64,000 nt of DNA from Tolypeutes matacus (Eukaryota > Chordata > Mammalia > Cingulata > Chlamyphoridae): the NCBI GenBank assembly GCA_026826555.1, contig JAKSZT010053883.1, positions 32,778,395 through 32,842,394 on the forward strand, read 5' to 3'. Positions within the stretch are counted from its first letter, which is position 1. Every line of letters begins with the position of its first letter. A program made the position numbers and the translations under genes. This document shows, piece by piece, positions 3,173 through 64,000 of the stretch. The notes beneath the pieces were generated by a model. The model did not search any database. It was not told where the DNA came from and saw nothing but the letters and a program-made list of their open reading frames with translations.

Positions 3173-3837
3173 ATATATTCTTTAACTGAATCCCACAAAT
3201 ATATACTGGCTACCAGCAATGAGCAAGGCCTAGGTAGTGTATGTGGGAGACAAAATTCAATGGGATACAGACTCTTTTCAGTTAAATTTTATAATTCAGG
3301 GATGTAAGAAGAGACATACCACAAAATAATTTTATGGAGGTTTAGAGAATCAGGGAGGTATAGGACAGGGAGATGAAACACAGTAGATATTCAATAATTA
3401 GTAGCAATTTGTTATTATTACCAATAGACATTATAACTTCCAGGACTTTTGACCTATTCTACTGTTCTTTGCCTTGCTACCAATTTTATAGAAAAGTATA
3501 AGCAGCTTTGGTCTAGTCTGTTTTATGCATGCATAATGGCTACTAGAGAGACTCTCTGCTGCCAGAGTTCTTTCCCAGATGTGACTAACTCCTAATTCCT
3601 TTTCTTTGTTATTCTTGAAGACTTGGTGTTTGCTAATATTAGGTAAGTGTGGGGTGTAGGAAAAAGTTCCCTGTTTGCAGAGCTTTTTGTTGTCTGATGA
3701 AAGATTAAATAGGGCTTCCATCCTCGTCTTATTTGAAGTAGGGTGTGATATGTCTCTTGTTAGTATTTGTCATTGTGGTAGTATCTTACTATTGAGCATC
3801 TGTTAGCTGTTTCCACCAAAAACACATGCTGTAGGGA
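3173..3837. other. Unique-looking noncoding DNA
   Basis: AT-rich sequence with no exon-like open frame and no repeat that I can assign. It lies upstream of the alternative MACF1 first exon, so it is intergenic or belongs to an upstream MACF1 intron. Confidence 0.5.
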
Positions 3838-4273
3838 AGTAGTTGTGGCCCAAATTGTTGGGCGCCCGTCTCCCATATGGAGGGACCTGGGTTTGATCCC
3901 TGGGACCTTCTGGTAAAATAAAGAAAAATATAGAAGGTGCACCGTCAGGCCCTGCGCGCAGGCAAGCCCCCAGGCCCTGCTGAGCTACGCAGCAAGATGA
4001 TGATGTAACAGGAGAGTGACATAAGGGAGAGCCAAGATGAGATGCGCCGAAAAACCAGGAACTAAGGTGACGCAGGCAGTAGGACGCCTCTCTCCCACAT
4101 TGGAGATTCCCAGGATCCAATCCTGGTGAAGACAGGAGGAGAAGGATGAGAAGAGAGGGCAGGAAATGGACACAGAGAATTGCCAGCGAATGGACACAAA
4201 ACAGCAAAAACGGTGGCGGCAGGGGGTTAAAATGCATAAAAGTATATAAATAAATAAATCTTTAAAAAAAAAC
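3838..4273 (+). repeat. DAS-type SINE, long (about 440 bp) variant
   Basis: It has the head GTTGTGGCCCAAATTGTTGG and the box CCCATATGGAGGGACC. It continues with a GC-rich middle, AGCAAGATGATGATGTAACA, a second tRNA-like motif near 4060-4130, GGCAGGAAATGGACACAGAG and an A-rich tail. Imperfect flanking repeats, AACACATGCTGTA and AACACACATACTATA, suggest a TSD. The same long unit is embedded in the three composite retroposons of this window. Confidence 0.8.
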
Positions 4274-7271: not shown

Positions 7272-7742
7272 GATTTTTTAAAAATTAATTAATTTATTTA
7301 CTTTTATCCATTTTTACCCCCCACCCCACCCCCCAATTTTTGCTGTTTCTGTGTCCATTTGCTGGGCAATTCTCTGTGTCTGTTTTCTGCCCTCTCTTCT
7401 CATCCTTCTCCTGTCTTCACCGGGATTCGATCCTGGGAACCTCCAATGTGGGAGAGAGGTACGTACCTACTGCCTGCGCCACCTTAGTTCCTGGCTTTTC
7501 GGCGCATCTTGTCTTGGCTCTCCCTCGTGTCATCCTCCTGTTACATCATCATCTTGCCGTGTGGCTTGGCTGGGCGTGGCTGCGCATCTGTGTGCGGGGC
7601 CTGACGGAGCACCCATGCATGGGGCCTGGCGGTCCATGTGCCTTATATATTTTCCTTTATTTTTACCAGGAGGTACCAGGGGTCGAGCCCAGGTCACTCC
7701 ATATGGGAAATGGATGCCTAACCATTTGAGCCGCATCCTCCC
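7272..7742 (-). repeat. DAS-type SINE, long variant, minus strand
   Basis: It is the reverse of the element at 3838-4273: a T-rich left end, TTTTACCCCCCACC, CTGTGTCCATTTGCTGGGC, GTTACATCATCATCTTGC, and the head at the right end. The TSD AGGATGATTTTT is present on both sides (near 7267 and 7749). Confidence 0.85.
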
Positions 7743-7944
7743 CCTCATAGGATGATTTTTGATCCAATTTTTAAAACCTGTAATTCAGACTTCCTGCCCA
7801 CCTGCTGTTTGAGTAAAGCACCTGACCTCATTTTGGCCACTTCCTGTCTTACTCCCAGATGACAGCAAGTGTTATCTCTGTGTAGGACTTCCATGCCTCT
7901 AGCAGTAGGAAGGTAATGCAACATGGTGATAAAATTAAAACAGA

Positions 7945-8940: not shown

Positions 8941-9170
8941 CCTTGAATTTGTCTTGTTGCAGCTCTGAGCCTGTAAGATGGCTGTCTGAATCGGCAGCGG
9001 CTGGGAGAGATGGAGAGAGGCGGGGAGGGAGGGAGAAAGAATTGGAGCGATTGTCGGCATAGTGCATGTTTTTAAATGTGCATCCAATCTGCTGCAGCCA
9101 AGGTTGGGATTTCTTTGGGATCCCAGGACTGGTTTAGCTGTGTTTCTCCTGAGATTAGTAGAGGAAAGAA
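8941..9170 (+). promoter_or_regulatory. MACF1: Putative 5' UTR and core promoter of the short-N-terminus MACF1 transcript
   Basis: No TATA box is visible. A YY1-like motif AAGATGGCTGTC lies at 8975-8986, followed by a purine-rich tract at 9001-9040. If transcription starts upstream, two small upstream ORFs precede the main start: one of three codons at 8978 and one of 21 codons at 9010-9075. An in-frame TAG at 9159-9161 closes the main frame four codons above the ATG, which supports the assigned start. The transcription start is not determinable here. Confidence 0.5.
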
Positions 9171-10181
9171 ATGGGAAATTCACTGGGCTGTGTTAAGGAA
9201 CCGAAAGAGTCAATAGCTGTTCCTGAGAAGGCTCCCATATCTCCTAAGAAAAGGGTTCGGTTCAAAAGGAAGTGGAGGGGTAAGAAAACCCCTACTCCAG
9301 AGGCATCTCATGAGGAAGAGCCCTTGGAAGGGACTGGAGTCACTGAAGAGATTGAAACCCTAACGAAGTTAACAGTGAGTCTCCAAAAGGAGGAAGGTGT
9401 GGGAGGGTTAGAGCAACCCCCACTAGACATTTTACTGCCTGAAGACTTGGCCCCCAACTCAGGGGTCGGGGATCAGGGGATGATCGTGCAGGTGAAGGAG
9501 AGATTCCAAGCAGAAATCCAGACTGCTCACCTTTTGTTAGAGAATGAGTCATCAGTTGCTGCAGGAGTCTGGGATTCCCTGGAAGAGGGGATGACTGTCA
9601 TTGCTCACCTGCTTGAAAATCCAGCAGAACGGAACTGTGAGAAGTCAGTGAGCCAACTGGTGGAATTTCCGAGGACAGCATCCTGTAGCAGCAGGGCTTT
9701 GCTGCTGCCTTTGCAAGGAGAGACTGCAGTGGAGAAAGGAGGTATTCAGCTCAGATTTCAGAGCAGCACTTCCAGGAAAGACTATCCCACTGACACAGAA
9801 AATCAAGGCCAACTTTCAGGGGGCTGGAGTGGAGGGGGAGGAACCAAAGGTATTTCAGATGCCACTCCAACAGGTTACTGGATTGCAGAATGTTCTGTTC
9901 CTTCATTGCTCCTGGACCAGTTGGGAGGCCATAAACCTGCCTACATGGGTCGAGTGCCTCCCCAGGGTCCTAGACTGCCCACTTCTCAAAGCGATTTATC
10001 CATTAGTGGCATGACTGTGAGCCTTTTGCCCTCCTCTTCTGGTTATGGCAGTGATGGGCCACACTTACAGGGGATCCAGCCTAAAGATACAGAACCTGAA
10101 AAGAGCTCCATATCCTTCTCCGAAGAGGATGGCACCCTTTCTTTGGAGGCAAGCCATACTCCATCATGGGGTCCAGAGGAG
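9171..10181 (+). CDS. MACF1: MACF1 alternative first coding exon (short, lipid-anchored N terminus)
   Basis: The exon encodes residues 1-337 of a MACF1 isoform that begins with a unique segment instead of CH1. The start is set by an in-frame stop at 9159-9161 and a strong Kozak context (G at -3, G at +4). Gly2 with Cys7 in MGNSLGC predicts N-myristoylation plus palmitoylation. A polybasic run follows at residues 26-39 and contains RVRF at 28-31, which fits the PP1 RVxF docking pattern, just after an SPKK phosphosite-like motif at 24-27. The rest is acidic and Ser/Thr-rich, with no known fold. The exon ends at GAG followed by the donor GTAGGT, in phase 0, and joins in frame to the CH2 exon at 44372. 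I recognise the sequence as the alternative MACF1 N terminus. The paralogue dystonin has a comparable myristoylated isoform without CH1. If the donor is skipped, translation runs 11 more codons to a stop at 10215-10217. Confidence 0.9.
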
Positions 10182-11523
10182 GTAGGTGGGCATGCTCAAA
10201 GGATAATCAACAACTGATTGGATTCCTGGCCCTCAAACTTATTAAAGTGGGGTGTGGTGAGCAGTGATGATCTGGGTGCTTCTTCCCAAGCTTATCTTTA
10301 TTTTAAATATTGTGAGTTAGTGACTGCTAGGGCTTGGCAAATAGAATCTATTTCAGGTCTGCCCCTTGATACTTGAAACCAAGTCTTGCTGTTTCTGGGG
10401 AATTCTTGATTCCGGGTAACCAAGTGGCATAATTACTTGAGCCAACTGGTGGGGCTGTCTCTCGAGGTGCAATGCTAGGTAGTACTTACTCTCAGGCAGA
10501 TCTGTTTACCAGTTTCCCTACTACAAGAAGTTGTAGTGTAGCATAAATAATGATGGAGAGGCCTAGCTGAATCTCTGAAATGAGTGTGGAAGGTCTGAGG
10601 AATGTTGAAAGGGTAGGGGTGAGACAGCTATCTTCAGTGTACCTGCTGTACTCCCCTGAAGAGTATGTGTTCTTACTAGAGCTGATGCAATCCACACCTG
10701 TGCAGGAACTTCTAATGACAACGCTCATTGCATATTTGTGTAGATGGGGAGGGTTCCTCCTTTGTCTGTCTCAGTGTCCAGTATTAGAGGGGAGAGGCAT
10801 AGGATTATCTGGAGATTAGTTGGGTAGAGGACGGAGAGTGAGGGGTTAGGGCAGTTTGAAGATTCTAGGGTAGAAAAGGTTTGTTTTGTGATTGGACTTG
10901 TTAAGGGCTTTAACATGTTTTTGTTTGTGAGGTATATATTGAGGCAAACATGGTGATAGTGGTGGTGGTGAGTGTTGTGAATGTTTTTAAGGGTCAAGGA
11001 GCAAGTAAGAATTCAAGGCATTTGGACACTGAGAGGAGGAGGACAGCTTAGTAGGACTCTGGGTAGAAAAGATTCTGACGTGTTATGTGATTTTGAAGGA
11101 GATTGAAGTTAGAATTCACCAGTGGCTGAAAAACTTGTTGGCATGTCATCCTCTGCAGCAGAAGAAATAAAAACTTTAGGATCAAGACATAGAAGATCAA
11201 GTAGAGCAGATACTTTCTCACCTAGGCTGTGGGCAGCTGATACTAAACAGCTGACCTGATGTACACAGAGCAGGGATGTAACCTACCTACTTAGCACCAA
11301 CAGCATGAAACTGAGGAGAGACACAAATTTTAGGCTGATCTCTACTTAACATTTTCTCTTTGGGAAGAAATTTCCCCCATGGACAGGCTCATCTCTGTAC
11401 CCTCTATTGTTATGGAGTTTGTAGACTGCCAGCAATTGGAGAAAAAAGTAGCCATTGGAAAATATCTACTGTATGGTTGGACAAGACGCTCTTAGAACTT
11501 TTCCATAGGAAAATAGATATGTG
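10182..11523 (+). other. MACF1: MACF1 intron, repeat-poor first part
   Basis: This is the start of the 34-kb intron between the alternative first exon and the CH2 exon. I see no confident mobile element or exon here. The absence of recent insertions within 1.3 kb of the exon could reflect regulatory constraint, but that is inference. Confidence 0.5.
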
Positions 11524-13364: not shown

Positions 13365-13553
13365 TTTTTTTTTTTTTTTTTTTTAAAGATTTTATTTATC
13401 TATTCATTCATCCCCCCCTGCTGCCTGCGCTCGCTGGGTCAGCCAACCGTGCCGCGCGGGCAGGCCCGCCCCCACCAGGAGGCCCCGGGAACCGAACCTG
13501 GGGCCTCCCATATGGCAAACGGGAGCCCCACTGATTGAGCCACAGCCGCTTCC
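13365..13553 (-). repeat. DAS-type SINE, 190-bp class, minus strand
   Basis: A T run is followed by AAGATTTTATTTATCTATTC, CCCCCCTGCTGCCTGCGCTC, AGGAGGCCCCGGGAACCGAA and CTGATTGAGCCACAGCCGC. It is GC-rich and little diverged. Confidence 0.9.
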
Positions 13554-13567
13554 CTCTTTTTTTTTTT

Positions 13568-13936
13568 TTTTGACATTTTTCCTACTGATTTTTTTTTACT
13601 ATTTTTACATTTTTTTCATTAGAGAAGTTGTAGGTTTATGGATAAATCATGTAAGAAATACAGTGTTCCCATATAATTCCCCCTTTATTAGCACTTTGCA
13701 TTAGTATGGTACCCTTGTTACAAGTGATGAAAGAATATTATAATTGTACTATTAACTGTAGTCCATAGTTTACATTAAGGTTTCCCCATTTACCACCCTG
13801 TTATTAACACCTTGCATTAGTATGGCACATATGTTATAATTCATGAAAGAACATTTTTATAATTGTACTATTAATTATAGTCTATTGTTTACAATAATCT
13901 GTTGTTTACTATGTTGTATAGTCCTGTTTTATCTTT
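13568..13936 (-). mobile_element. L1 3' fragment, minus strand (left part)
   Basis: It contains CATATAATTCCCCCTTTATT and CACCTTGCATTAGTATGGCA, typical of an old L1 3' untranslated region in reverse. It continues at 15329-15668 and 16261-16332 on the far side of a patch duplication, a composite retroposon, two SINEs and a solo LTR. Confidence 0.6.
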
Positions 13937-13966
13937 TATATGACAGGTAAGAAGTAGCTTATTAAA

Positions 13967-14924
13967 TACGAATATTCTCGCTGTCCTGATTTTGTGATAA
14001 TCAGGGTAGGCTAAACGTCCGCTATATTATAAACCATGCATGTGTCCCTAGACCTAGTTTTTCTCCCTAGGTCTGGTTTTAGAATGCTGGTGATAAACTA
14101 AGCCTGATTTATTATACAACCATCCTGTATGGGAAAAGACTGTAACTTTGAATATCTTTGGTCAACCTTAAGAGATACAGCAGGGGGACAGATGTGGCTC
14201 GGGTGGTTGGGCGTCCGTCTCCCATATAGAAGGACTTGGGTTCGACCCCTGGAACCTCTGGTAAAAATTAAAAAAAAGAAAAATAGAGAAGTTGCATGGG
14301 CTACCAGACCCTGTGTACGGGTGTGCCGCCAGGCCCCGCGAGTGGGTAAATCACCAGGCCCCATCTGCGGGTGAGCCGCCAGGCCCCGCAAACCATGCAG
14401 CAAGATGATGATGTAACAGGAGAGTAACACAAGGGGGAGCCAAGATGAGATGCACCGAAAAACCAGGAACTAAAGTGGCGTAGGCGGTGGTAGGACGCCT
14501 CTCTCCCACATCGGAGGTTCCAAGGATCAAATCCCAGTGGAGATGGGGAGAAGGATGAGAAGAGAGGGCAGGAAACAGACACAGAGAGTTGCCCAACAAA
14601 TGGACACAGAAACAGCAAAAATGGGGGGGGGGGGATAAAATGGATAAAAGTAAATAAATAAATAAATAAATCCTTAAAAAATGTATAAGAAAGGAAGATT
14701 CGAATTATAGTTAGTAGTAATATTTTGACAGTGCTCTTTCATGATTTGTTAACAAAATGTTTCACAACAATGCAGGGTGTTTGGGGGTTGGGGAGATGTG
14801 TGAGAGCCCTGTATGATGTTATGCATGTTTGTTTTGTAAGTTCATGATGTTTACTGAACACTTATAGTTTATGTATGTTCATGTATGAATGATATACTTC
14901 AATAAATTGTTAAAAAAAAAAAAA
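13967..14924 (+). mobile_element. Composite retroposon copy A (head + SINE + L1-like tail)
   Basis: A 958-bp unit flanked by the perfect 15-bp TSD AAGTAGCTTATTAAA (13952-13966 and 14925-14939). The head (13967-14182) starts TACGAATATTCTC and carries a hairpin with stem AGACCTAG/CTAGGTCT. A long DAS-type SINE occupies 14183-14679. The tail (14680-14910) resembles an L1 3' end, sharing TTTGTTTTGTAAGTTCA with the L1 at 22200, and ends in AATAAA plus poly(A). Copies B and C have the same order and 5' boundary. There is no long ORF, so it is non-autonomous and presumably moved by L1 enzymes. Confidence 0.8.
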
Positions 14925-14945
14925 AAGTAGCTTATTAAAATAAAT

Positions 14946-15168
14946 GGGGGGAAGCGGATGTGGCTCCTGTTTACCATGTGGGAGGCCCCAGTTTGATTCC
15001 TGGTGAAGGCAAGCTGACCCGCGTGGCGTGGTGCAGCAAGGTGCCGCAACAAAGAGAGACAAGCAGACACAAAAAACCACAGTAAATGGACACAGCAAGC
15101 ATAAGCAACAAGGGGGGGCGGGGATAAATAAATAAATAAATAAATAATAAATCTTAAAAAAAAAAAAA
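14946..15168 (+). repeat. DAS-type SINE, 190-220-bp class
   Basis: It has the head GGGAAGCGGATGTGGCTCCT, GGTGAAGGCAAGCTGACCC, AGACAAGCAGACACA, an (AATA)n tract and poly(A). It is inserted directly beside the 3' TSD of composite copy A. Confidence 0.85.
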
Positions 15169-17952: not shown

Positions 17953-17961
17953 GATTGTCTT

Positions 17962-18874
17962 TATTTTATTTATTTTTTAAACAGTTTATTAAAGTATATC
18001 ATTTCATACATGAACATACATAATCTATTAAGTATTCAGTAAACGTCATGAACTTACAAAACAAACATACATAACATCATACAGAGCTTCTACACATCTC
18101 CCCGCCCCCAAACACCCAGCACTGTTGTGAAACATTTGTTAACAAATCATGAAAGAGCATCGTCAAAATATTACTACTAACTATAGTCTGAATCTTTCTC
18201 CCCTATACATTTTTTTAAGAATTTATTTACTTACTTTTATCCATTTTTACCCACCCCCACCCCCCGTTTTTGCTGTTTCTGTGTCCAGTCACTGGGCAAC
18301 TCTCTGTGTCTGTTTCCTGCCCTCTCTTTTCATCCTTCTCCTCCTGTCTTCACTGGAATTTGATCCTCAGAATCTCCAATGTGGGAGAGAGGCGTACTAC
18401 CACCTGTGCCACCTTAGTTCCTGGTTTTTCGGTGCGTCTCATCTTGGCTTTCCCTTGTGTCACTCTCCTGTTTTGTCATCATCTTGCGTGGCTAGCGGGG
18501 CCTGATGGCACACCCACACATGGTGCCTGGTGGCCCATGCACCTACTATATTTTTCCTTTTTAAATTTTTACCAGGAAGTCCCGGGAATCAAACCCACAT
18601 CCCTCCATATGGGAGACAGATGCCCAACCACCCAAGCCACATCCGTCCCCCTGCTATATCTCTTAAGGTTGACCAAAAATACCCAAAGTTACAAGTATTT
18701 TCCCATACAGGATGGTCATATAATAAATCAGGCTTAGTTTATCACCAGCATTCTAAAAACCAGACCTAGGGAGAAAAACTAGGTCTAGGGACACATGCAT
18801 GGTTTATAATATAGTGGACGTTTAGCCTACCCTGATTATCACAAAATCAGTTCAGTGAGAATATTCACAATATC
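17962..18874 (-). mobile_element. Composite retroposon copy B, minus strand
   Basis: It has the same three-part structure as copy A: tail at 17962-18202, long SINE at 18203-18657, head at 18658-18874. The 913-bp unit is flanked by GATTGTCTT (17953-17961 and 18875-18883). The head hairpin AGACCTAG/CTAGGTCT is intact. The SINE sits at the same internal junction as in copy A, so the three parts were mobilised as one unit. Confidence 0.8.
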
Positions 18875-18886
18875 GATTGTCTTTTT

Positions 18887-20664: not shown

Positions 20665-22258
20665 TTGGAAACTACATATCTGATAAGGGTTTGATTTCCA
20701 TTCTATATAAAGAGATCATACAACTCAACAGTGAAAGAGCAAACAATCCAATTTAAAAATGGGCAAAAGACTTAAAAAGACATTTCTCCAAAGAGGAAAT
20801 ACAAATGGTCAAAAAGCACATGAAAAAATGTTCAATACCACTAGCTGTTAGGGAAATGCAAATCAAAACAACAAGATATCATCTCACACTGCATAGAATG
20901 GCCATTATTTAAAAAACAAAACAATTAGTGCTGGAGAGGATGTGGAGAAATGGGAACATTCTTTCACTGTTGGTGGGAATGTAAAATGGTGCAGCCTCTG
21001 TGAATGACAGTTTGGCGGTTCTTCAGGAAGCTAAATATGAAACTGTCATATCCAGAAATTCCTCTACTAGAAATATATCCAGAAGAACTGGAAACTGTGG
21101 CGTGAACAGAGATTTGCACACCGATGTTCATAGTGGCGTTATTCACAATTGCCAAAAGATGGAAACAACTCAAATGTCCATCAACTGAATGAATAAACAA
21201 AATCTGGTATATACATATGATGGAATACTATGCTGCTGTAAGAAGTGATGAAATTGGGACACAAATGGTAATGTGGATGAACTTTGAAGGCTTTATGCTA
21301 AATGAAATAAGCCAGACACAGAAGTACAAATATTGTGTGGTCTCACTAATATGAACTAAATATGAAGAATAAAAGCATGGACTTAAAACCTAAAGTATAG
21401 ATTATTGGGAGATAAGAGGAGGACTGAGAACGGGTACTGATGCTTAATGTATATAGAAGTTATAATTGACTGTAAAAGTGTGGAAATGGATAGAGTTGAT
21501 GGTAACACATTAAAGTGAGAAGAACTAATGCAGCTGGTTTATAAATGGGATTGTGGCTGAAAAAGGTAGTCTAGGGATGTAAATGTCAATTGAAAGAAAG
21601 CTAGAGAATAATCTAGGGTCTGAATAACATAGTGAGCCCAGAAGTGGATGAGAATTGTGGTTAATAGTACAAATACAGGGAAGTGGCTGTGGCTCAATCA
21701 GTAGGGCTCCCGTTTACCATATGGGAGGCCCCGGGTTCGGTTCCTGGGTCCTCCTGGTGAAGGCAAGCCCGCCCGCACGGCGTGGTTAGCTGACCCAGAG
21801 AGCACAAACAGCAAGGGGGGGGATAAATGAATAAATAAATAAAATCTTAAAAAAAAAAAAAATAGTACAAATACAAGAATGTCCTTCTATGAATTAAAAC
21901 AAATGTACATCACTATTTAAAGGTGGTAAGAATGTGGAAAAGCATGAAGAAAATACAATTAATTTAACCTATGAACTATAGTTAACAGCAATACTGTAAT
22001 ATTCTTACATCAGTGCCAAAGATGTACCATGTTAATAATGGGGGGGGGTATGGAAAAAATATGCCAAATATATGTTATAGACCATAGTTAGTGGTCATAG
22101 TCTGATGATGATACTATCTCATAATGTTTAGCAGATATTCCTCAACAATGTAGTGTGTTGGTGGAGGGGTGTTGTATGGGAATTCCAAATATGTGCATGA
22201 TTGTTTTGTAAGTTCACAACTTCTCTAATAAAAATATATTAAAAATAAATAAATAAAT
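20665..22258 (+). mobile_element. L1 3' end, plus strand, 5' truncated
   Basis: It starts in late ORF2 or the 3' region (CATATCTGATAAGGGTTTGA, TTCTTTCACTGTTGGTGGGA), runs through a long 3' untranslated region and ends TTTGTTTTGTAAGTTCACAA with an AATAAA-rich tail. Its 3' end is the closest relative in this window of the composite-retroposon tail. The SINE at 21675-21862 is inserted in it. Confidence 0.85.
21675..21862 (+). repeat. DAS-type SINE, 190-bp class
   Basis: A full head-to-tail copy (GTGGCTGTGGCTCAATCAGT to AAAATCTTAAAAA) with a TSD of ATAGTACAAATACA(A)G at about 21660 and 21863. Confidence 0.95.
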
Positions 22259-23797: not shown

Positions 23798-24538
23798 GAG
23801 AGGGAGAAGCAACGTGGCGGAGACAGGAGAGATCCTAGAACGCTCTCGTCACCATGAGCCTCCTCAACAAACCCACGAGTGAGATGACCCCGGAGGAGCT
23901 GCAGAAGCGGGAGGAGGAGGAGTTTAACACAGGTCCCCTCTCTGTGCTCACGCAGTCAGTCAAGAACAACACCCAAGTGCTCATCAACTGTCGCAACAAC
24001 AAGAAGCTCCTGGGCCGGGTGAAGGCCTTCGACAGGCATTGCAACATGGTGCTGGAGAACGTGAAGGAGATGTGGACTGAGGTCCCCAAGAGCGGCAAGG
24101 GCAAGAAGAAGTCCAAGCCAGTCAACAAGGACCGCTACATCTCCAAGATGTTCCTGCGCGGGGACTCCGTCATCGTGGTCCTGCGGAACCCGCTCATCGC
24201 TGGCAAGTAGGGGCCTCCTCCCCGCCGCCAGAACTTCCTGCCCCATCCTCCCAAGACCTGCCCTCGTGTCAGAAATACTACTACTAGGGAAGCGGCTGTG
24301 GCTCAATCAGTGGGGCTCCCGTTTACCATATGGGAGGCCCCGGGTTCAGTGCCCGGGGCCTCCTGGTGAGGGCAGGCCCGCCTGCACGGCGTGGTTGGCT
24401 GACCCAGCGAGCACAAGCAGCAGGGGGGGATAAATGAATAAATAAATAAATAAAATCTTTAAAAAAGAAAAAAAAAAGAAAAAAAGAAAGAAATACTACT
24501 ACTAATAAAAGCCCCTGTGTTTTTTTTTTTTTTTTAAA
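23798..24538 (+). pseudogene. SNRPD2: SNRPD2 processed retrocopy with intact ORF
   Basis: An intronless copy of the mRNA for Sm-D2, a core spliceosomal snRNP protein. The 118-codon frame at 23854-24210 is complete and matches the mammalian protein throughout except Thr at residue 8, where I recall Lys in human. It retains a 5' UTR, a 3' UTR with AATAAA (interrupted by a SINE) and a short A tail. The TSD AAGACTTAATGTGG lies at 23784-23797 and 24539-24552. High GC contrasts with the host L1. It lies in the MACF1 intron on the same strand. The lack of introns makes it a retrocopy; whether it is expressed is unknown. Confidence 0.95.
24287..24488 (+). repeat. DAS-type SINE inside the SNRPD2 retrocopy 3' UTR
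   Basis: A full 190-bp-class copy with the perfect 16-bp TSD AGAAATACTACTACTA (24271-24286 and 24489-24504). It separates the retrocopy coding region from its AATAAA signal, which makes it the third layer of nesting: L1, retrocopy, SINE. Confidence 0.97.
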
Positions 24539-27848: not shown

Positions 27849-28037
27849 TATGTTGTGGCCGTTGGGCAGTTTAATTTAATTATGGATTCCAAAAATATAA
27901 TTGGATCATGCTTGTAAACTGATCTGTTAATCTGGGCATGATTAGGTTATGATTAGGGCATTGAGCCCCACCCCTTGGTGGTGGGGAATCGAATATAAAA
28001 GGCAAGGCAAAGGACAGTTGAAGCAGTCTTTTGAGAA

Positions 28038-28228
28038 GCAATTTTTTTTTATTTTTTTAAAGATTTTATTTATTTATTCATTTATCCCCCCCTTGCTGCT
28101 TGTGCTCGCCGGGTCAGCCAACCACGCCGTGTGGGCGGGCTTGCCCTCACCAGGAGGCCCCGGGAACCGTACCCCGGGCCTCCCATATGGTAAACGGGAG
28201 CCCTACTGATTGAGCCACAGCCGCCTCC
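28038..28228 (-). repeat. DAS-type SINE within the 5' LTR
   Basis: A reverse 190-bp-class copy (AAAGATTTTATTTATTTATT to TTGAGCCACAGCCGCCTCCC) flanked by TTGAGAAGCAATTTT on both sides. The 3' LTR lacks it, so it inserted after the LTR element had integrated. Confidence 0.95.
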
Positions 28229-28908
28229 CTTGAGAAGCAATTTTGATGTTGGAAAGAAGCCCCAGGAGAAGAGAAGCAAGCCGTTTGCCTGATCGCCTAC
28301 AGCTGACCTTGTGGAGGAAACAGGAGCTAAGCCTGGAGAGAAACGCAGCCCTGGGAAGAGAGGAACCCAAGAAGCCTGAACCCTGGCAAACGCCGGCAGC
28401 TGTCTTGCTCTAACACGTGGCAATGGACTGTGGTGAGAGAAGAAACTTAACGCTTTATGGCCTGGTATCTGTGGACTTCTACCCCAAATAAATACCCTTT
28501 ATAAAGACCAACCCATTTTTGGTATTTTACATTAGCACCCCTTTGGCTGACTAATACAGAATTTGGTACCGAGGAGTGGGGAAGTGCTTTTGTAATTACC
28601 AAAATGTTGGAACGGTTTTATAAATGGGTAAGGGGTATTTTTTGGAGGAATTGTGAAATGCTTGATGGAAAAGGACTAGATCACTTTGAAGAGACTATTG
28701 ATAGCAATATGGACACTAAAGAGACTTTCTGTGATGCCTTAGAAGTAAACGATGAAACTATTATTGGAAACTGGAGGAAAGGCGATCCATGTTTTAAAGT
28801 TGCAGAGAACTTAGCAAGATGAACTCCTGGTGTTATATGGAAGACAGAATTTGAAAATGGCGAACTAGAGCATTTGCTGAAGTACTTTCCAAAATAAACC
28901 CGGAGGAT

Positions 28909-29685: not shown

Positions 29686-30690
29686 GACTTTAACCCAAAG
29701 ATTGGGTAAGGTGTGGCAATCACCTCAACACTCTTGGAGGGTGAGGTCTGGAGCTTGGCCGACACCCAGATGCTTGATGAGGGTGGAACCAAGAAAATGG
29801 CCCTTGGGCAAGCCTGTGCAAAGGGTGGGTTCCCATGTGGCCCTAAGGAGAAGAAACCATCTTCTTAAGAATGACTCTCAGACTTTGAAATCCAATGGAG
29901 TATGCCCTACAGGTTTACTGAACTGTAGAGGATCCATGACTCATGTTTAACATCCCAGTTTCTTCTTAATTGAAAATGTTTATCCTTTGTTTTTCCATTT
30001 GTGTATTGGAACCAGTTAAATGGTTTTATAAGTTTCAGAGGTCTACAGCAGATGCAATTTTGCCTGAAGACAAACTGTATTTCTTTAAAATGATTTTGAT
30101 ATGATTTTGCACTTGGATTTTTACTGATTTAAGTTTTTTATAATATTGTAATGTATTTTTGGAATTCAGAGGGTGGAATGTGGCTGTTGGGCAGTTTGAT
30201 GTGATTATGAATTCCAAAAATATAATTGGATCATGCTTGTAAACTGATCTGTTAATCTAGGCATCATTGGGTTATGATTAGGGCGTTGAGCCCCACCCCT
30301 TGGTGGTGGGGAATCGAATATAAAAGGCAAGGCAAAGGACAGTTGAAGCAGTCTTTTGAGAAGCAATTTTGATGTTGGAAAGAAGGCCCCAGGAGAAGAG
30401 AAGCAAGCCGTTTGCCTGATCGCCTACAGCTGACCTTGTGGAGAAACCAGGAGCTAAGCCTGGAGAGAAACGCAGCCCCGGGAAGAGAGGAACTCCAGAA
30501 GCCTGAACCCTGGCAAACACCGGCAACTGTCTTGCTCTAACACGTGGCAATGGACTGTGGTGAGAGAAGAAACTTAATGCTTTATGGCCTGGTATCTGTA
30601 GACTTCTACCCTAAATAAATACCCTTTATAAAGACCAACCCATTTTTGGTATTTCACATTAGAACCCCTTTGGCTGACTAATACATACGT

Positions 30691-30785: not shown

Positions 30786-30788
30786 TGT

Positions 30789-30798
<10 letters not shown>

Positions 30799-30827
<29 letters not shown>

Positions 30828-31706
30828 TATCTTTAAACAATTTACTGAAGTATATCATTCATACATGAACATACATAAACTATAAGTGTTCAGTAGACAT
30901 TGTGAACTTACAAAACAAACATGCATAACATCATACAGGGCTCCCACATATCACCCCCCCACAAACACTTTGCATTGTTATGAAACATTTGTTAACATAT
31001 CGTGAAAGAGCATTGTCAAAGTATTACTATTAGCTGTAGTCCATATCTTCCTTCCCTATACATTTTTTTAAGGATTTATTAATTTATTAATTTACTTTTA
31101 TCCATTTTTACCCCCCACCACCACCATTTTTGCTATTTCTGTATCCATTCACTGGGCGACTCTGTGTCAGTTTCCTGCCCTCTCTTCTCCTCCTTCTCCT
31201 CCTGTCTTCACTGGGATTCGATCCTCGGAACGTCCGATGTGGGAGAGAGGCATCCTACTGCCTGTGCCACCTTAGTTCCTGGTTTTTCAGCACATCTCGT
31301 CTTGGCTCTCCCTTGTGTCACTCTCCTGCTACATTGTCATCTGGCTGTGTGGCTTGTGGGGCCTGGAGGCCCATGTGCCTTCTATATTTTTCTTTTTTAA
31401 ATTTTTACTGGGAGGTCCCAGAGATCGAACCCAGGTCCCTCCATATGGGAGACAGACACCCAACCATTTGAGTCACATCTGTCCCCCTGTTACATCTCTT
31501 AAGTTTGACCATAGATATCTAGAGTTACAGTCATTTCCCCATACAGGATGGTCATATAATAAATCAGGCTAAGTTTATCACCAGCATTCCAAAAACCAGA
31601 CCTAGGGAGAAAAACTAGGTCTGGGGACACATGCATCGTTTCTAATATAGCGAATGTTTAGCCTACCCTGATTATCACAAAATCAGGGATAGTGAGAATA
31701 TTCGCA
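30799..31706 (-). mobile_element. Composite retroposon copy C, minus strand
   Basis: The 908-bp unit is flanked by TGTTTCTGTATAT (30786-30798 and 31707-31719). The tail is at 30826-31064, the long SINE at 31065-31490 and the head at 31491-31706, which ends (element 5' end) at GAATATTCGCA. The head hairpin AGACCTAG/CTAGGTCT is intact. The poly(T) side has been replaced by about thirteen TA dinucleotides. Confidence 0.8.
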
Positions 31707-31719
31707 TGTTTCTGTATAT

Positions 31720-33847: not shown

Positions 33848-33871
33848 CGCATTTGATGATGATGATAATTA

Positions 33872-34319
33872 TTTTTAAAGATTTATTTATTTATTTATTT
33901 ACTTTGAGCCATTTTTACTGCCCCTCTGCCCTCCCGTTTTTTGCTATTTTTGTGTCCATTCGCTGGGCAATTCTCTGTCTGTTTCCTGCCCTCTCGTCTC
34001 ATCCTTCTCCTCCTGTCTTCACTGGGATTTGATCCTGGGAACCTCCGATGTGGGAGAAAGGTGACCTACCGCCTGCACCACCTTAGTTCTTGGTTTTTTG
34101 GCACGTCTCATCTTGGCTCTCCCTTGTGCCACTCTCCTGTTACGTCATCATCTTGCTGCGTGGCTCGGTGCGGCCCGACGGTGCACCCGTGCAGGCGCCT
34201 GGCGGCCCGTGCACCTTCTATATTTTTCTTGTTTTTTACCGGGAGGTCCTGGGGATTGAACCAAGGTCCCTCCATATGGGAGACGGACACCCAACCATTT
34301 GAGCCACATCCACCCCCCA
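33872..34319 (-). repeat. DAS-type SINE, long variant, minus strand
   Basis: It has AAAGATTTATTTATTTATTT, TTTGCTATTTTTGTGTCCAT, CTGTTACGTCATCATCTTGC, a GC-rich middle and the head GTTCGATC-like box reversed at the right. It belongs to the same class as the SINE inside the composites but stands alone here. Confidence 0.88.
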
Positions 34320-35363: not shown

Positions 35364-35549
35364 TTTTTTTTTTTTTTAAAGACTTTATTTATTCATTAAT
35401 TAATCCCCCCCTTGCTGCTTGTGCTCACTGGGTCAGCTAACCGCGCCACGCGGGCGGGCTTGCCTTCACCAGGAGGCCCCGGGAACCGAACCCGGGGCCT
35501 CCCATATGGTAAACGGGAGCCCTACTGATTGAGCCACAGCCGCTTCCCC
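35364..35549 (-). repeat. DAS-type SINE, 190-bp class, minus strand
   Basis: A clean copy from AAAGACTTTATTTATTCATT to GAGCCACAGCCGCTTCCCC, with TSD ATATGACAATTTTT (left near 35355, right near 35550). Confidence 0.95.
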
Positions 35550-44778: not shown

Positions 44779-45726
44779 TGTATTAGTCAGCCAAAGGGGT
44801 GCTGATGTAAAGTACCAGAAACCTGTTAGGTTTTATAAAGGTTATTTATTGGGGGTAGAAGCTTACAGTCACAAGGCCATAAAGAGTAAATTACTTCCCT
44901 CACCAAAGTCTGTTGCCACATATTGGAGCAAGATGGCTGCTGGTCTCTGCAAGGGTTTGTTTGGAGTGGTTGAGGAACAGCTGGTGGCTGGGCTGGAGAA
45001 GGAAGTGAGGAAAATAGGAAGTTTATTTATTTATTTATTTTTAAAGATTTTATTTTTATTTATTCATTTATCCCCCCTTGCTGCTTGTGCTCGCTGGGTC
45101 AGCTAACCACGCCACACGGGCGGGCTTGCCTTCACCAGGAGGCCCTGGGAACCGAACCCGGGGCCTCCCATATGGTAAACGGGAGCCCTACTGATTGAGC
45201 CACAGCCGCTTCCCCAATAGGAAGTTTAAGTAACAAAGATTGGAGCCTTCCTCTTCAGGCTCCATGGCCCCAGCTTCTTCTGGTCTCAGTTGTAGGCTGG
45301 TATAAGGCTCATCTCTCTCCCTGGGGCTGTTTCTTTCCGGGCTCAGCTGCTCTGTTCTCTTCACAAGGTCAGCTGCAGACTATCAGACTCATTCTCTTCC
45401 TGGGACCTCTGCCCTGTCTAATGGAGCCTTCTCTCTTTCCTCATGTATCTGCTTCTCTGTGTATTTACTTCCCAGGGCTCCAGCATCAAAACTCAAACTC
45501 TCTCCTCTGCCATGTAATTTTCTCTGTGAGTCCCTGCCCACCAAGGGAGTGGGGACTCTACGTCCTACTGGCGTGGCCGAATCAAAGCCCCCCAATCTTA
45601 ATTTAATCAGGTAAAAGTGAAACCTCTGAATCTAATACAATATAATAAGCCTAGAGGAGCGGACCAGTTTACAGACATAATCCTATATCTATTTTTGGGA
45701 TTCATAAATAATATCAAACTGCTACA
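44779..45726 (-). mobile_element. MaLR-like solo LTR, minus strand, carrying a patch insertion and a SINE
   Basis: It begins TGTATTAGTCAGCC and ends AAACTGCTACA. Flanks GTGGG and GTGAC agree at 3 of 5 bases, so the TSD is weak. Internally, 44951-45242 is foreign: a copy of 45933-46016 that was later split by the SINE at 45026-45215. Confidence 0.85.
45026..45215 (-). repeat. DAS-type SINE, 190-bp class, minus strand
   Basis: A full copy with TSD AATAGGAAGTTTA at 45013-45025 and 45216-45228. The related tract at 45933-46016 lacks it and preserves the empty site, confirming the boundaries. Confidence 0.97.
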
Positions 45727-46423: not shown

Positions 46424-46738
46424 GTGAGAGTTGACCTAACCTGAGTAAGTTTTTGCATATATGCACTATTCCTTCTTTGGTCAGATTCCTCTGCTCTGAC
46501 TAAGAAATTTCTTTTTTTTTTCTTTTTTTTTTTTTTAAAGATTTTATTTATTTATTCATTTATCCCCCCCTTGCTGCTTGTGCTCGCTGGGTCAGCTAAC
46601 CACGCCGTGCGGGCGGGCCTGCCCTCACCAGGAGGCCCCGGGAACTGAACCCGGGGCCTCCCATATGGTAAACAGGAGCCCTACTGATTGAGCCACAGCC
46701 GCTTCCCATGAAGAAATTTCTTGTCATTTCTCTTTCAG
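46424..46738 (+). other. MACF1: Short MACF1 intron with a SINE next to the 3' splice site
   Basis: The 315-nt intron holds the reverse DAS-type SINE at 46514-46710. Its TSD AAGAAATTTCTT lies at 46502-46513 and 46711-46722. The SINE lies 28 nt upstream of the exon, between a good branch-point-like CTGAC (A at 46499) and the acceptor at 46738. Confidence 0.9.
46514..46710 (-). repeat. DAS-type SINE, 190-bp class, minus strand, at a splice acceptor
   Basis: A T run is followed by AAAGATTTTATTTATTTATT, the GC-rich body and CTACTGATTGAGCCACAGCC. The perfect 12-bp TSD is AAGAAATTTCTT. The antisense head supplies CTGAT (A at 46687), a possible replacement branch point. Confidence 0.95.
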
Positions 46739-55983: not shown

Positions 55984-57109
55984 GTATGGTAGGCATATTT
56001 GTGTATGAGCATGTCTTTGTGTGTCTGTGTATGTGTGAGTGTATGTGTACATCAGAGAGGATGAGGAGTATAACCTTTTTCATTCAGGCCAGAGATTGTG
56101 TGTATATGTTCACGCATAGGTAAGGTTAAAAACACATCTGTACCAGTTAGCTTTTATTGTATAAAACACCGCCCCAAAATGTAATTGCTTAAAACAATAG
56201 CCATTTAGTTAGTTCATGATTCTATGGGATGGCAGCTTGGATTGGGTTCATCTCAGGGGTTCTTTTCATCTTGCCTGGGCTTATTACTTGCAGGTAGCTG
56301 TCAGGTAGGCTAGGGCCTGGTTGGTCCTGAATGACCTCAGTCATGTCAACAGTTGGCAGGGGTGATGGTGGTGAAAGGCCATGTGTCTCTAACATCAAGC
56401 AGGCTAGCCTAGGCTTCTTCACAAAGTGGCTGTGCTCCACAAACAGCAAGAGAGAGTAAGTCCCGGTGCACAAGCACTTTTTTCTGCTTCTGTCAGTTTT
56501 ATAAATGTACCATTGGTCAAAGCAAATCACATGGCCAGATTCAAGGGGAGGAGAAATAGACTCCACTTCTTGATGGGAGTCACTGTGAAATATCACAAAC
56601 ATCTCTTTTCAATCAACCACAACATGGAAGAATATACTGCTCATTTTCAGATGAGGGTAAAAGGAGTAAATAAGCTGCTATCTCTGTTTGTTTTTGTCCT
56701 AAGTTAAATAATCTTTCTGATCATTTTGTAGTCATATCAGTGAAATTGAAACAAGTTTTTAAATCCCTCAACCTCTAAGCTTTTCATGAAATATACCTCA
56801 CAGCCAAGTGCTGTTACTAGTCAAAAGTTGAGAGGAAAGAGCAATAATTTCTGAGGGTAGGAAGCAGGTAAACGTTTCTATAGGATTTAGTAGGCATTGT
56901 GAGCATTATCACTAATATTTTAATGACATGGCATTTTAAGCCCTCCAATTTATAATTCTGTTTGCTTTGTAATCAATAACTAATATCTGTCTATAGTGGA
57001 ATATAATCAGCTATGCTCAGTTCTGTACAGTAAGATTGCTCCTTCTTAGTTAACCTCTCAGTGTTCCGATGTATTGAGCACAAGGCATCCCTTCTTTCTA
57101 TCACCACAG
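55984..57109 (+). other. MACF1: MACF1 intron with an old unassigned interspersed repeat
   Basis: The segment 56140-56605 (TAATTGCTTAAAACAATAGC, TGATTCTATGGGATGGCAGC) resembles a common mammalian repeat, an LTR or DNA-transposon relic on the minus strand, which I cannot name with confidence. A TG-rich stretch lies at 55990-56055. Confidence 0.5.
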
Positions 57110-57235
57110 TTCTTCAGTGATGCACGAGACTTAGAGGCATTCTTGAGGAACCTCCAAGACTCTATCAAACGAAAGTATTCCTGTGACCACAACACCAGCT
57201 TATCCCGTCTTGAGGACCTGCTTCAGGACTCCATG
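57110..57235 (+). CDS. MACF1: MACF1 exon: plakin domain, helix leading into SH3
   Basis: Encodes residues 947-988 (FFSDARDLEAFLRNL, YSCDHNTSLSRLEDLL). It is 42 codons in phase 0 at both ends. The acceptor is TATCACCACAG and the donor ATG|GTGGGT. Confidence 0.95.
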
Positions 57236-57433
57236 GTGGGTGTTGCATCGGTGGGGAGTTTACTTCTGAGAAACAGAGTAAACCATATCAAATGCTGCTG
57301 CTTATATCCTTGAAAGCTCCAGAGCAATGGGTCAGTGTTACAGAGTTCAGCTCACATTCAAATAGAGTTTAATTCTTTCATATTTTCTTTTCTTTTCTCA
57401 AAGAAGTTGCTAATAAAGTTTCTTTGAGGGGGG

Positions 57434-57893: not shown

Positions 57894-58083
57894 GGAAGCG
57901 GCTGTGGCTCAATCAGTAGGGCTCCCGTTTACCATATGGGAGGCCCCGGGTTCGGTTCCCGGGGCCTCCTGGTGAGGGCAGGCCCGCCCGCACGGCGTGG
58001 TTAGCTGACCCAGCGAGCACAAGCAGCAAGGGGGGGATAAATGAATAAATAAATAAAATCTTTAAAAAAAAAAAAAAAAAAAA
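57894..58083 (+). repeat. DAS-type SINE, 190-bp class
   Basis: A full, little-diverged copy (GGGAAGCGGCTGTGGCTCAA to AAAATCTTTAAAA). The TSD AGAAAATTGATTTT lies on both sides. Confidence 0.97.
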
Positions 58084-60157: not shown

Positions 60158-60310
60158 GATGAAAAGGAGCAGCTTATACAGTCTAAGAGTTCTGTTGCCA
60201 GTCTTGTTGGGAGATCAAAAGCCATTGTGCAGCTAAAGCCTCGCAGTCCAGACCATGTGCTAAAGAGCACTATTTCAGTTAAGGCCATTTGTGACTATCG
60301 GCAAATTGAG
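60158..60310 (+). CDS. MACF1: MACF1 exon: plakin domain and start of the SH3 domain
   Basis: Encodes residues 989-1039 ([42 protein letters not shown]). The [11 protein letters not shown] stretch is the first strand and RT-loop entry of the SH3 domain embedded in the plakin repeats, so the domain is completed by the next exon outside the window. It is 51 codons in phase 0 at both ends. The acceptor is TCTCATTTTGTAG and the donor GAG|GTGAGA. Confidence 0.95.
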
Positions 60311-61149
60311 GTGAGAAAGTCAAAAGGGTACCTCTGGGTTCCAGAGGGAAGGAGGGGAGAAGGGAAGCCTTCAGTTAAGGTTTCGGGAGTTTTTCCTATT
60401 AGAATTTAAACCGGTTCAAATCTTTCCATCATTAAAAAACAACAACAAAAACAAACAAACTCTACAGTCTTGATTTTTTCCCTGATGCAATGATTGGCAT
60501 CATCATCCACTCAGTTGCCCAAGTGCTGATGGAAATGGCACTTTGTAGTTCCTGGGAAATATCCTTGACTACCCCTTCTTATTCCCCACAGCTAGTAGTT
60601 CAGGCAAGTCAATATTATCTTACAAATTTACCTTAAATGTACTTTTTTCCATCCCTGCTTTTACTACCCTAGTTTAGGCTATAAGTTTCTTTCACTTAGA
60701 TCAGTGCATCTCCCTCCTTATTCAGTGCATTTTTTATCCTGCTACCAGTGTGATCTTTAAAACAAACAAAAAAGGTCACTTCCCAAATCCTACAACAATT
60801 CCCTGTTGCTCTTGGGAGAAAGTCTAAATCACAAGATAAAGAGTAATCTGTCTTTATCTCCCTTGCCAAGACTGGATTGTGTTCCTTCCATACATTCCCA
60901 TAAATTGCCCTATTATAGCATTTATTGCACAGTGTTGTAAGTATATACTCCACCAGAATATGTGGAATATAGACTATGCTTGCTTACCATTGCACCCTTT
61001 TTATTCCTAGTGGCCTGGTATACTTTTAGGCACCTAGTAAGCACTCAATAAATATTTTTTATACAAAGAATGAATGAATAAAATAAAGAATGAGTCCAGC
61101 TTCTCTGTGTATCAGTATTTCTGGCTATAAAATAGGGTTAATAATATCA
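60311..61149 (+). other. MACF1: MACF1 intron, unique
   Basis: No exon found before the L1. There is a small AAC/AAAC-rich tract at 60439-60459 and a MIR-like or L2-like remnant near 60990-61080. Confidence 0.55.
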
Positions 61150-64000
61150 ATTGTCGGGGATTTCCGGAAAGATGGTGGACACTTAAGACACGGGAATCTC
61201 TTCTCCAGAAAAATAGCTAGAGGACAGGCTAAAACAGCCCTGAAAAAGATCTTCTAGGGTTTAGGACAGCAGGTGAAGGCTGCACACCACCCAGAGGAGA
61301 GAGGGACAAAAGAAGGAAATTGCAACAACAGAACCCTGAGTTGGAACCAGCAGTGCCTGCTGCTGCCGGCACCCACCCCCACACTCTTCAGAATTCTCGG
61401 GCCTCTGGGCCTGCGACCACAGACAAAATGGGCTCCAGGGATCTACCACTCCTGGAAAGGGGAGAGAGAGGGACACAGCCTTAGGCTGACTCAGGTTCTG
61501 ACCTGCAGATTTGGGCTATGGAGACCCACGGACCCTTCCACATGGCAGTTTGCACTGGGAGCCTAGGAATGACTGGAGAAATCCGACCCTCGCAACCTCC
61601 CTCTCTTCTAGCCTGGACTAATTGTTGAGGACTCCATGGGAGAGGGGAGAGAGAGCCTGGGCCTGACCCTACTTTTGACTCCCAGGTTTGGTCTGCCCTG
61701 TCCCGAGAGCCCTTCCAGGGTGGGTGGGGCTGTGCCATTGTTTGCCTTGGAGCCTGCAAGGGGCTAAAGATATACAAACCTCCAATCTCCTCCTCTACTA
61801 ACAGGGACTGATTGTTGAGGATTCAGAAGGGAGTGGAAATATTTCCTAGCTGGGAAAAGGGAGGGGGCTACCAGAGAAGACTGGAGAACTGTATCAGAAA
61901 GTTTGAATTACAAGGCTCTTAGCCCCCAGACAGGAAGCTCTATCACATTGATCTGGTCTGTGTCACAAAAATAGGCTCTGACCAGGCATTGAATTGAGAC
62001 CTTCCAATGAGCGCCATCTCCTGGCAGACCAAGGAAATGCACATAAGAAAATTAATAAGTAGGAGAGGCTTTTCCTGGCCTCTATAGCCTCCCTGCCCAA
62101 GGCCCTAGAAAACGACTCTACAACCAATTACTGGGTCCAGTGCCCAGTTTTGAGCAACCAGCAGAACAATACTGACAATCCAGGTTGAGCCAAAAATCAA
62201 AGAGCTGTGGTAATTCACAGCCTCCTGCCACTAAAACCCTATTAAAGAGAAAGAGATAGAGCATCTAAGTAAAATACAACCTAACTAGATGCCAAAGCAC
62301 CTGCAAAAAATTACGAGCCATACTAAGAAAATAGAAGACATGGCCCAAGAAAAGGAATACAGCAAAATCCCAGAAGAGATGCAGAATTTGAGAGAACTAA
62401 TCAGTGAGATGAGCACAAATTTCCAAAATCAAATTAATGAGATGAAAGATAATATAGTTAAAGAGATAAATGACATCAAGAAGACATTGAGCGAACGCAA
62501 AGAAGAATTTGAAATCCTGAACAGAAAAGTAATGGAGTTTATGGGAGTGAAAGACACAATAGGTGAAGTCAAAACCACATTTGAGGGGAAGCGGCTGTAG
62601 CTCAATCAGTAGGGCTCCTGTTTATCATATGGGAGGCCCCGGGTTCGGTTCTCGGGGCCTCCTGGTGAAGGCAAGCCCGCCCGCACGGCGTGGTTAGCTG
62701 ACCCAGCGAGCACAAGCAGCAAGGGGGGGATAAATGAATAAATAAACAAAATCTTAAAAAAAAAAAAAAAACACACATTTGAGGCATACAACAGTAGACT
62801 CAAAATGATAGAAGAAAGAATAAGTGATACCGAAGACAAGGCAGCTAAAATTGATGAGAGAAAAGAACAGAGAGAGAAAAGAATGGAAAAAATTGAGCAG
62901 GGGCTCAGAGAGTTGAATGACAACACAAAATGCAACAACATACATGTCATGGGAGTTCCAGAAGGGGAAGAGAAAGGAAAAAGAGCAGAAAGAGTATTTG
63001 AGGAAATAATAGCTGAAAATTTCCCAACTCTTATGAAAGAAATGAACTTACATGTCCAAGAAGCACACCGTACCCCAATGAGAATAAATCCAAATAGACC
63101 TACACCAAGACACATACTATTCAGAATGTCAATTGTAAAAGATAAAGAGAAAATTCTCAGAGCAGCAAGAGAGAAGCAAACAATCATGTACAAAGGACGT
63201 CCAGTAAGACTTTATGCAGATTTCTCTTCAGAAACCATGGAGGCAAGAAGACAGTGGTATGATACAGTTAGGAAACTGAAAGAGAGAAACTGCCAGCCGA
63301 GAATTCTTTATCCAGCAAAACTGTCCTTCAAATATGAAGGGGAATATAAAGTATTCACAAACAAACAGAAACTAACAGAGTTTGCAAAAAAGAATCCACC
63401 TTTGCAGGAAATATTACAGGAAGCCTTAGAACCTGAAAGGAAAAGACAGGAGAGAGAGGCTTGGAGGAGAGTATAGAAGAAAGAAAAGCAAAAGAGTAAA
63501 AAGAAAGACAAAACAAGATGACATATGAAAACCAAGGAATAAAATGGAGGAAATAAATAGTGCATTTTCAGTAATATCATTAAATATGAATGGATTAAAT
63601 TCCCCAATCAAAAGATACAGGCTGACAGAATGGATTAAAAAAAACATGAGCCATTCATATGCTCCTTACAAGAAACTCACCTCAGACCCTGGGATACAAA
63701 CCGGCTGAAAGTAAAAGGTTGGAAAAAGATACTCCACGCGAATAGTAACCAGAAAAGAGCAGGGGTAGCTATACTAATATCAGACAAAACAGACATCAAA
63801 TGCAAAAAAATGATAAGAGATGCGGAAGGCCATTATATATTAATAAAAGGGACGATCCTCCAGGAAGATATAACAGTCATAAATATCTACGCACCTAACC
63901 AGGGTGCCCCAAAATATATGAGACAAACTCTGGCAAAACTGAAGGGAGAAATTGACATTTCTACAATAATCGTCGGGGACTTCAACACCCCTCTCACATC
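61150..64000 (+). mobile_element. Young L1, plus strand: 5' UTR, ORF1 and start of ORF2; cut by the window edge
   Basis: The 5' region starts near 61150 (GGGGATTTCCGGAAAGATGG). ORF1 runs 62289-63476 and is split only by the SINE at 62586-62771. Its parts show a coiled-coil N half and the RRM and C-terminal domain text (NNIHVMGVPEGEEK, RPTPRHILFRMS, KGRPVRLYADFS, QPRILYPAKLSFKYEG). ORF2 begins near 63586 with NGLNSPIKRYR and runs to the window end (YAPNQGAPKYMRQTLAKL, IIVGDFNTPLT), with at least one frameshift at an A run near 63640. It is in the sense orientation of MACF1. Confidence 0.9.
62586..62771 (+). repeat. DAS-type SINE inside L1 ORF1
   Basis: A full 190-bp-class copy with TSD ACATTTGAGG (62576-62585 and after the poly(A)). 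It introduces a frame break in the ORF1 coiled-coil region, so this L1 lost ORF1 function at or before this insertion. Confidence 0.95.

Follow-up and report, generated by a model that had tools for sequence, protein, structure and literature searches.

Among the closest described systems is snoRTE, which joins an H/ACA snoRNA to an RTE LINE (Schmitz et al. 2008, platypus). The excerpted text of a later account labels it marsupial although its citation is to the platypus work (PMC4233971), and almost or about 40,000 platypus copies are given in the excerpts of two others (PMC11028025, PMC2832892). In monkey, SNORA24b comprises a snoRNA, the rest of its intron, two exons and poly(A), while SNORA76b has about 1.2 kb of common 3' flank; both show a target-site duplication (TSD) and an L1-type site (PMC2832892). 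SNORA70 paralogs have a 3' segment of ~490 bp in common, followed by poly(A); for these paralogs the authors preferred a mechanism not involving transposable elements (PMC2832892). RNAs that begin with a snoRNA have also been described. SPAs, in the excerpted account, are 5'-snoRNA-ended polyadenylated RNAs that arise when the snoRNP stops a 5'-to-3' exonuclease and transcription continues to a poly(A) signal, and SPA1 still formed when an H/ACA snoRNA was put in place of the C/D one (PMC11028025).

The window, a stretch of 64,000 nucleotides of Tolypeutes matacus DNA analysed at its full length, holds three composite inserts of ~0.9 kb each, here called A, B and C. All three consist, in one orientation, of a head that begins with the H/ACA snoRNA SNORA72, a long SINE and an L1-like tail. 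A sequence-only reading had already described this common order and orientation, and BLAST together with limits set by the duplicated flanks, from which the insert boundaries were taken, confirms it. The coordinates given in that reading are exact for copies A and C, while copy B starts at 17963 and not at 17962. The features of the three copies are as follows.

13967–14924, plus strand: copy A, whole insert (duplicated flanks)
13952–13966, plus strand: copy A, 5' copy of the TSD, 15 bp
14925–14939, plus strand: copy A, 3' copy of the TSD, 15 bp
13967–14098, plus strand: copy A, SNORA72, with model positions 2–132 inside the insert and position 1 on the last TSD base
14099–14181, plus strand: copy A, segment behind the snoRNA, 83–86 nt, the SINE start being ambiguous within a G-run
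14182–14681, plus strand: copy A, long tRNA-like SINE of ~0.5 kb with an A-rich run at its end (BLAST to solo SINEs, alignment)
14682–14924, plus strand: copy A, tail similar to the 3' end of L1, with AATAAA and poly(A) (nhmmer, shuffles)
17963–18874, minus strand: copy B, whole insert (duplicated flanks, BLAST, cmscan at 130.3 bits)
17953–17962 and 18875–18884: copy B, TSD, 10 bp, weak
18737–18870, minus strand: copy B, SNORA72, followed toward lower coordinates by the ~86-nt segment, SINE and tail
30799–31706, minus strand: copy C, whole insert (duplicated flanks, BLAST, cmscan at 134.5 bits)
30786–30798 and 31707–31719: copy C, TSD, 13 bp
31573–31707, minus strand: copy C, SNORA72 match, followed by the ~86-nt segment, SINE and tail

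Used as a BLAST query within the window, copy A finds copy B at 82% identity as a single piece and copy C as two pieces, at 85% and 86%. Searching the window with a profile of the three heads gives nothing further at E<2, and all three heads there are followed by the SINE and the tail. The sequence-only reading had assigned each copy its own TSD, and this stands for the 15 bp of copy A and the 13 bp of copy C, each of which was reached by 0/300 shuffles. The duplication of copy B is 10 bp and not the 9 bp proposed, and it is A-rich and weak, being reached by 17/300 shuffles. At their 3' ends, copy A carries AATAAA and an A-run and copy B AATAAA and an A-rich end. Copy C has AGTAAA, a short A-rich stretch and then a TA repeat, without a canonical AATAAA.

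The head had been reported as an unrecognised sequence, and this no longer holds. Its first ~132 nt match the SNORA72 model (RF00139) from position 1 to 132 of 132 in all three copies by Rfam cmscan, with scores of 131.7 bits for A, 130.3 for B and 134.5 for C, far over the gathering score of 43; the head is thus a full-length SNORA72 plus ~86 nt. Agreement with the Rfam consensus extends over 119/135, 116/135 and 120/135 alignment columns in A, B and C, respectively. The cmscan alignments contain one non-standard pair each in A and C and two in B, and the last 15 letters of the snoRNA are identical across the three copies and the consensus. Eight differences from the consensus are common to all three copies; they may reflect changes specific to the lineage that arose either in the parent gene or in a master. 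The snoRNA part folds better than nearly all of its shuffles, with 1, 1 and 0 of 200 as good for A, B and C (z −3.19, −2.56 and −4.60). SNORA72 is the one RNA family that cmscan finds at E≤0.1 in 13900–14960, around copy A. A second family in the copy B stretch gave one match of 16.1 bits, far under that family's gathering score of 55, and was ignored. Searched against public viral contigs, a SNORA72 19-mer matched one locus, L001, which by a rough estimate is about what chance would give.

The identity of the head explains its constant start. The inserts of copies A and C begin at SNORA72 model position 2 and that of copy B four bases upstream of position 1, in agreement with the earlier observation that the 5' points lie within about 5 bp of one another. 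Because the end of the insert is the end of the snoRNA, the 5' end is constant across the copies, which bears out the argument that random L1 truncation did not produce it. The 5' end of the copied RNA was probably set by a snoRNP and not by truncation.

The ~86-nt segment behind the snoRNA matches nothing else in the window at E<5. Its consensus was compared with five L1-like regions of the window, which were recognised as L1 by eye and not by a protein-family match, and 83, 61, 106, 198 and 50 of 200 shuffles scored at least as high as observed. In copy A the segment folds no better than shuffles, 150/200 being at least as good (z +0.65), and a motif from it has 0 matches in public viral contigs. 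It is possibly the host-intron flank of the snoRNA. Among the findings that would undo the composite unit, the sequence-only reading had named a head made of ordinary L1 3' sequence. That candidate is rejected, since the head is SNORA72 and the ~86 nt match none of the five L1-like regions above chance.

The tail, in contrast to this segment, is L1-like, as had been claimed. A profile of the three tails has its best other match in the window at 22076–22224 (nhmmer, E 1.2e-16), with weaker matches at 13658–13770 and 13804–13883. Against the five L1-like regions, the shuffles that equalled or exceeded the observed score numbered 0, 0, 145, 33 and 126 of 200, so that the tail beats all shuffles in two of the five. 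It resembles the 3' terminus of the element that spans 20900–22240 and was recognised as L1 by eye. At the window's very end, on the plus strand, 63639–63998 is an L1-type endonuclease fragment (Exo_endo_phos, E 4.7e-6).

SINEs of the type found inside the composites also stand alone. Near-full-length solo copies lie at 3829–4269, 7284–7745 and 33871–34318, all three without head and tail, and several shorter matches to the 5' part of the SINE occur elsewhere in the window. The p-distance among the composite SINEs is 0.146–0.160, against 0.182–0.250 to the solo SINEs. Three informative sites join A, B and C against the solos, other three-three splits having at most 2. Further informative sites support A+B (5), B+C (4), two solos (4) and C with one solo (4). 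These sites lend modest, partly conflicting support to a single origin of the composite SINEs. A SINE driven by Pol III was rejected as the mover of the unit, since its transcript would begin at the SINE and drop the head, and the head is present with all three tails in the window. A SINE of ~190 bp accounts for the nine tRNA-like calls in the window, 8 Gly and 1 Asp (814–890, 13476–13551, 24290–24365, 28151–28226, 35470–35545, 45136–45211, 46629–46704, 57896–57971 and 62589–62664). All fall within its copies and are SINE heads still folding as tRNA.

Divergence among the three copies was counted on gap-free columns outside CpG, and it is lowest in the snoRNA. Variable columns number 8/122 in the snoRNA, 15/81 in the ~86-nt segment, 55/359 in the SINE and 31/209 in the tail, or 101/649 outside the snoRNA. 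The difference is seen against the segment and tail together (Fisher p 0.010) and against the SINE (Fisher p 0.013), and a column permutation gives 0.0037 for the low variation of the snoRNA. Among equal-size overlapping blocks outside it, 0/528 are as low, the minimum being 10. With gap-adjacent columns dropped and two-state columns retained, the counts become 3/96 for the snoRNA, 11/69 for the segment, 42/283 for the SINE and 27/162 for the tail. Private snoRNA changes amount to 1/122 in A, 2/122 in B and 5/122 in C, the contrast being stronger in A and B than in C.

Because their variation rates are similar, the ~86-nt segment, SINE and tail appear to have travelled together. The low variation of the snoRNA would agree with sources that keep it intact. 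As a lead from three copies, it hints that some of the divergence built up in source loci under maintenance of the snoRNA, and a lower mutation rate could also be the cause. The SINE of copy A has an excess of private non-CpG changes, 28/359 against 8/290 in the segment and tail together; the corresponding counts are 14/359 against 16/290 in B and 12/359 against 22/290 in C. Because of this excess, the copy A SINE may have a past of its own, for example through gene conversion or exchange with other SINEs.

The three inserts are, with very high probability, an L1-mobilised family of SNORA72 retroposons. Common to them are the internal order, A-rich ends and TSDs, one of which is weak. The earlier proposal of one non-autonomous composite unit, with a probable single origin followed by copying, is upheld. 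As to the route, we lean towards a host transcript with a snoRNA at its 5' end and poly(A) at its 3' end, read through to the 3' end of an L1. Intronic snoRNAs undergo exonuclease trimming up to the ends that the snoRNP protects. By this route, a host-gene transcript would pass through SNORA72, the downstream sequence, a resident SINE and finally the 3' end of an L1, and use of the poly(A) signal there would yield a polyadenylated RNA. A 5'-to-3' exonuclease would trim this transcript until halted by the snoRNP, and the stable poly(A) RNA would be reverse-transcribed into new sites, presumably by L1 proteins, with an A-tail and a TSD. The source would be the SNORA72 host intron or some expressed intron that holds a daughter copy; the host gene in human is RPL30, according to the excerpted text of a cancer study (PMC7072173).

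Several features of the inserts bear on this route. The unit runs ~86 nt past the 3' end of the snoRNA into sequence that is not L1-like, as expected of a transcript entering flanking sequence. The 5' end at the end of the snoRNA, the sequence beyond the snoRNA 3' end and the A-rich end together give the inserts the anatomy expected of an SPA retrocopy. Counting against the route, a SINE resident in an intron should have a TSD unless worn, and by eye none is clear at its flanks inside the unit. The tail exceeds shuffles for two of the five L1-like regions, the TSD of copy B is weak and copy C does not have the canonical signal. The excess of private changes in the copy A SINE and the conflicting informative SINE sites also weigh on this side.

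The chief rival explanation for this anatomy is template switching in one L1 insertion, from L1 RNA to SINE RNA to a SNORA72 precursor, with the chimeric locus then serving as master. Chimeras of small RNAs and L1 in the same orientation, including U3 snoRNA, are known from the excerpted account in PMC13174262, and in the inserts the 3' A-run of the SINE adjoins the L1-like part, with no clear TSD of the SINE. Two switches would be required, however, and the simple form of this explanation predicts a direct snoRNA/L1 junction, whereas the junction lies ~86 nt past the snoRNA 3' end. U6/L1 chimeras, moreover, usually show no further self-propagation in that account (PMC13174262), and this explanation, too, calls for a transcribed master sharing that 5' end, which leaves template switching somewhat unlikely. 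Quite improbable is a later insertion, in which the SINE entered an older retroposon of SNORA72, ~86 nt and L1 by its own TSD and the copy thus lengthened then served as master. That this SINE can insert alone is evident from the solo copies, and its two edges are similar over a short length (ATGTA/TATAG and a G-run). Judged by eye, this similarity is too short for a TSD, and a copy lacking the SINE is absent from the window, where all three heads have it.

Two other accounts fare worse. The occurrence of three copies inside 18 kb would suit a segmental duplication of one locus at the DNA level, but the TSDs differ, copy A lies on the strand opposite to B and C, the ends are A-rich and the flanks do not align. 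These observations contradict duplication and make it scarcely credible. An ordinary L1 truncated at its 5' end, with the constant end fortuitous, would explain the L1-like tail. It is contradicted by the SNORA72 head, by the ~86 nt that are not L1-like and by a constant 5' end that is the snoRNA end, and its probability is next to nil.

The preferred route, a trimmed and polyadenylated host transcript, also admits an extension. Because each daughter copy starts with an H/ACA snoRNA that is nearly intact, the unit might renew itself: a sense copy in an expressed intron would again be trimmed, to the same 5' end, and again be polyadenylated at its own L1-derived signal. Such a self-renewing, snoRNP-capped retroposon is put forward tentatively and is, in our judgement, unlikely. 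If it exists, the snoRNP replaces the cap and fixes the end of the element without a promoter of its own, and selection for amplification preserves the snoRNA, whereas the other parts, SINE and tail, are left to drift.

The surroundings of the inserts contain other features. A Spectrin_3 domain is split between 57050–57310 (model positions 2–44) and 60158–60406 (model positions 45–68), both on the plus strand, and the first stretch is nearest, among solved structures, to plectin. Judged from this match, the two stretches are exons of a plakin-type gene on the plus strand. If such a gene spans the window, copy A lies sense and copies B and C antisense within its introns. On the plus strand at 9162–10214, an open frame of 351 codons from stop to stop resembles a coding exon and has no Pfam match; its start bears what we take to be a resemblance to an isoform exon of a plakin gene. 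A pair of direct repeats, 27854–28558 and 30179–30685, is ~500 bp long and 95–96% identical, with TG...CA ends by eye, and its first member is broken by a tRNA-Gly-like SINE. The pair appears to be the LTRs at either end of a short endogenous LTR element.

The SNORA72 composite adds an apparently L1-linked example to the snoRNA retroposon families amplified as a unit, a known route from housekeeping RNA to mobile DNA that has received little study. It links the literature on snoRNP-ended polyadenylated RNAs with that on L1 mobilisation of cellular RNAs, and its constant 5' end and less variable snoRNA offer a testable case for snoRNP protection, in place of truncation during reverse transcription, as what fixes the ends of a mobile element. 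If three copies per 64 kb are typical, the unit would be an abundant repeat, and its SNORA72 copies could confuse snoRNA annotation. Among the matches listed from the open-licence PMC literature, searched by title and the start of the abstract, no description of such an element appeared, which does not by itself prove novelty.

A comparison with the known systems places the unit among snoRNA retroposons. As in snoRTE, an H/ACA snoRNA head and a LINE-derived part are dispersed together (PMC4233971, as excerpted), the relatives of the tail being LINE by eye. In contrast to snoRTE as there described, the LINE part looks L1-like, a SINE is embedded, a ~86-nt segment is present and the snoRNA is SNORA72. 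The inserts also show the marks of snoRNA retroposons in general: a full-length snoRNA in three of three copies, A-rich 3' ends and TSDs of 15, 10 (weak) and 13 bp. With the monkey and mouse snoRNA retrogenes, SNORA76b and SNORA24b as well as the SNORA70 paralogs, they share a 5' end at the snoRNA, a co-mobilised 3' flank and poly(A) (PMC2832892). The 3' flanks of those retrogenes are host-locus or unique sequence, however, and the excerpted account does not include a SINE and L1 tail (PMC2832892). The U6/L1 and U3/L1 chimeras, among others, likewise have a small RNA preceding the 3' part of an L1, in the same orientation and in one insertion (PMC13174262, as excerpted). Chimeras of this type are bipartite in that text and those of U6/L1 usually do not propagate, whereas the SNORA72 unit is multi-copy and four-part, with ~86 nt and a SINE in place of a direct join between small RNA and L1. 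SPA RNAs have the form predicted for the copied RNA (PMC11028025, as excerpted); they are RNAs, with retroposition not mentioned in that excerpt, while the SNORA72 unit is known from DNA copies. Because its head is SNORA72, the composite takes its place among the known snoRNA retroposons, and, set apart from them by their descriptions, it is to be filed as a new family of snoRNA retroposon, neither snoRTE proper nor a new class.
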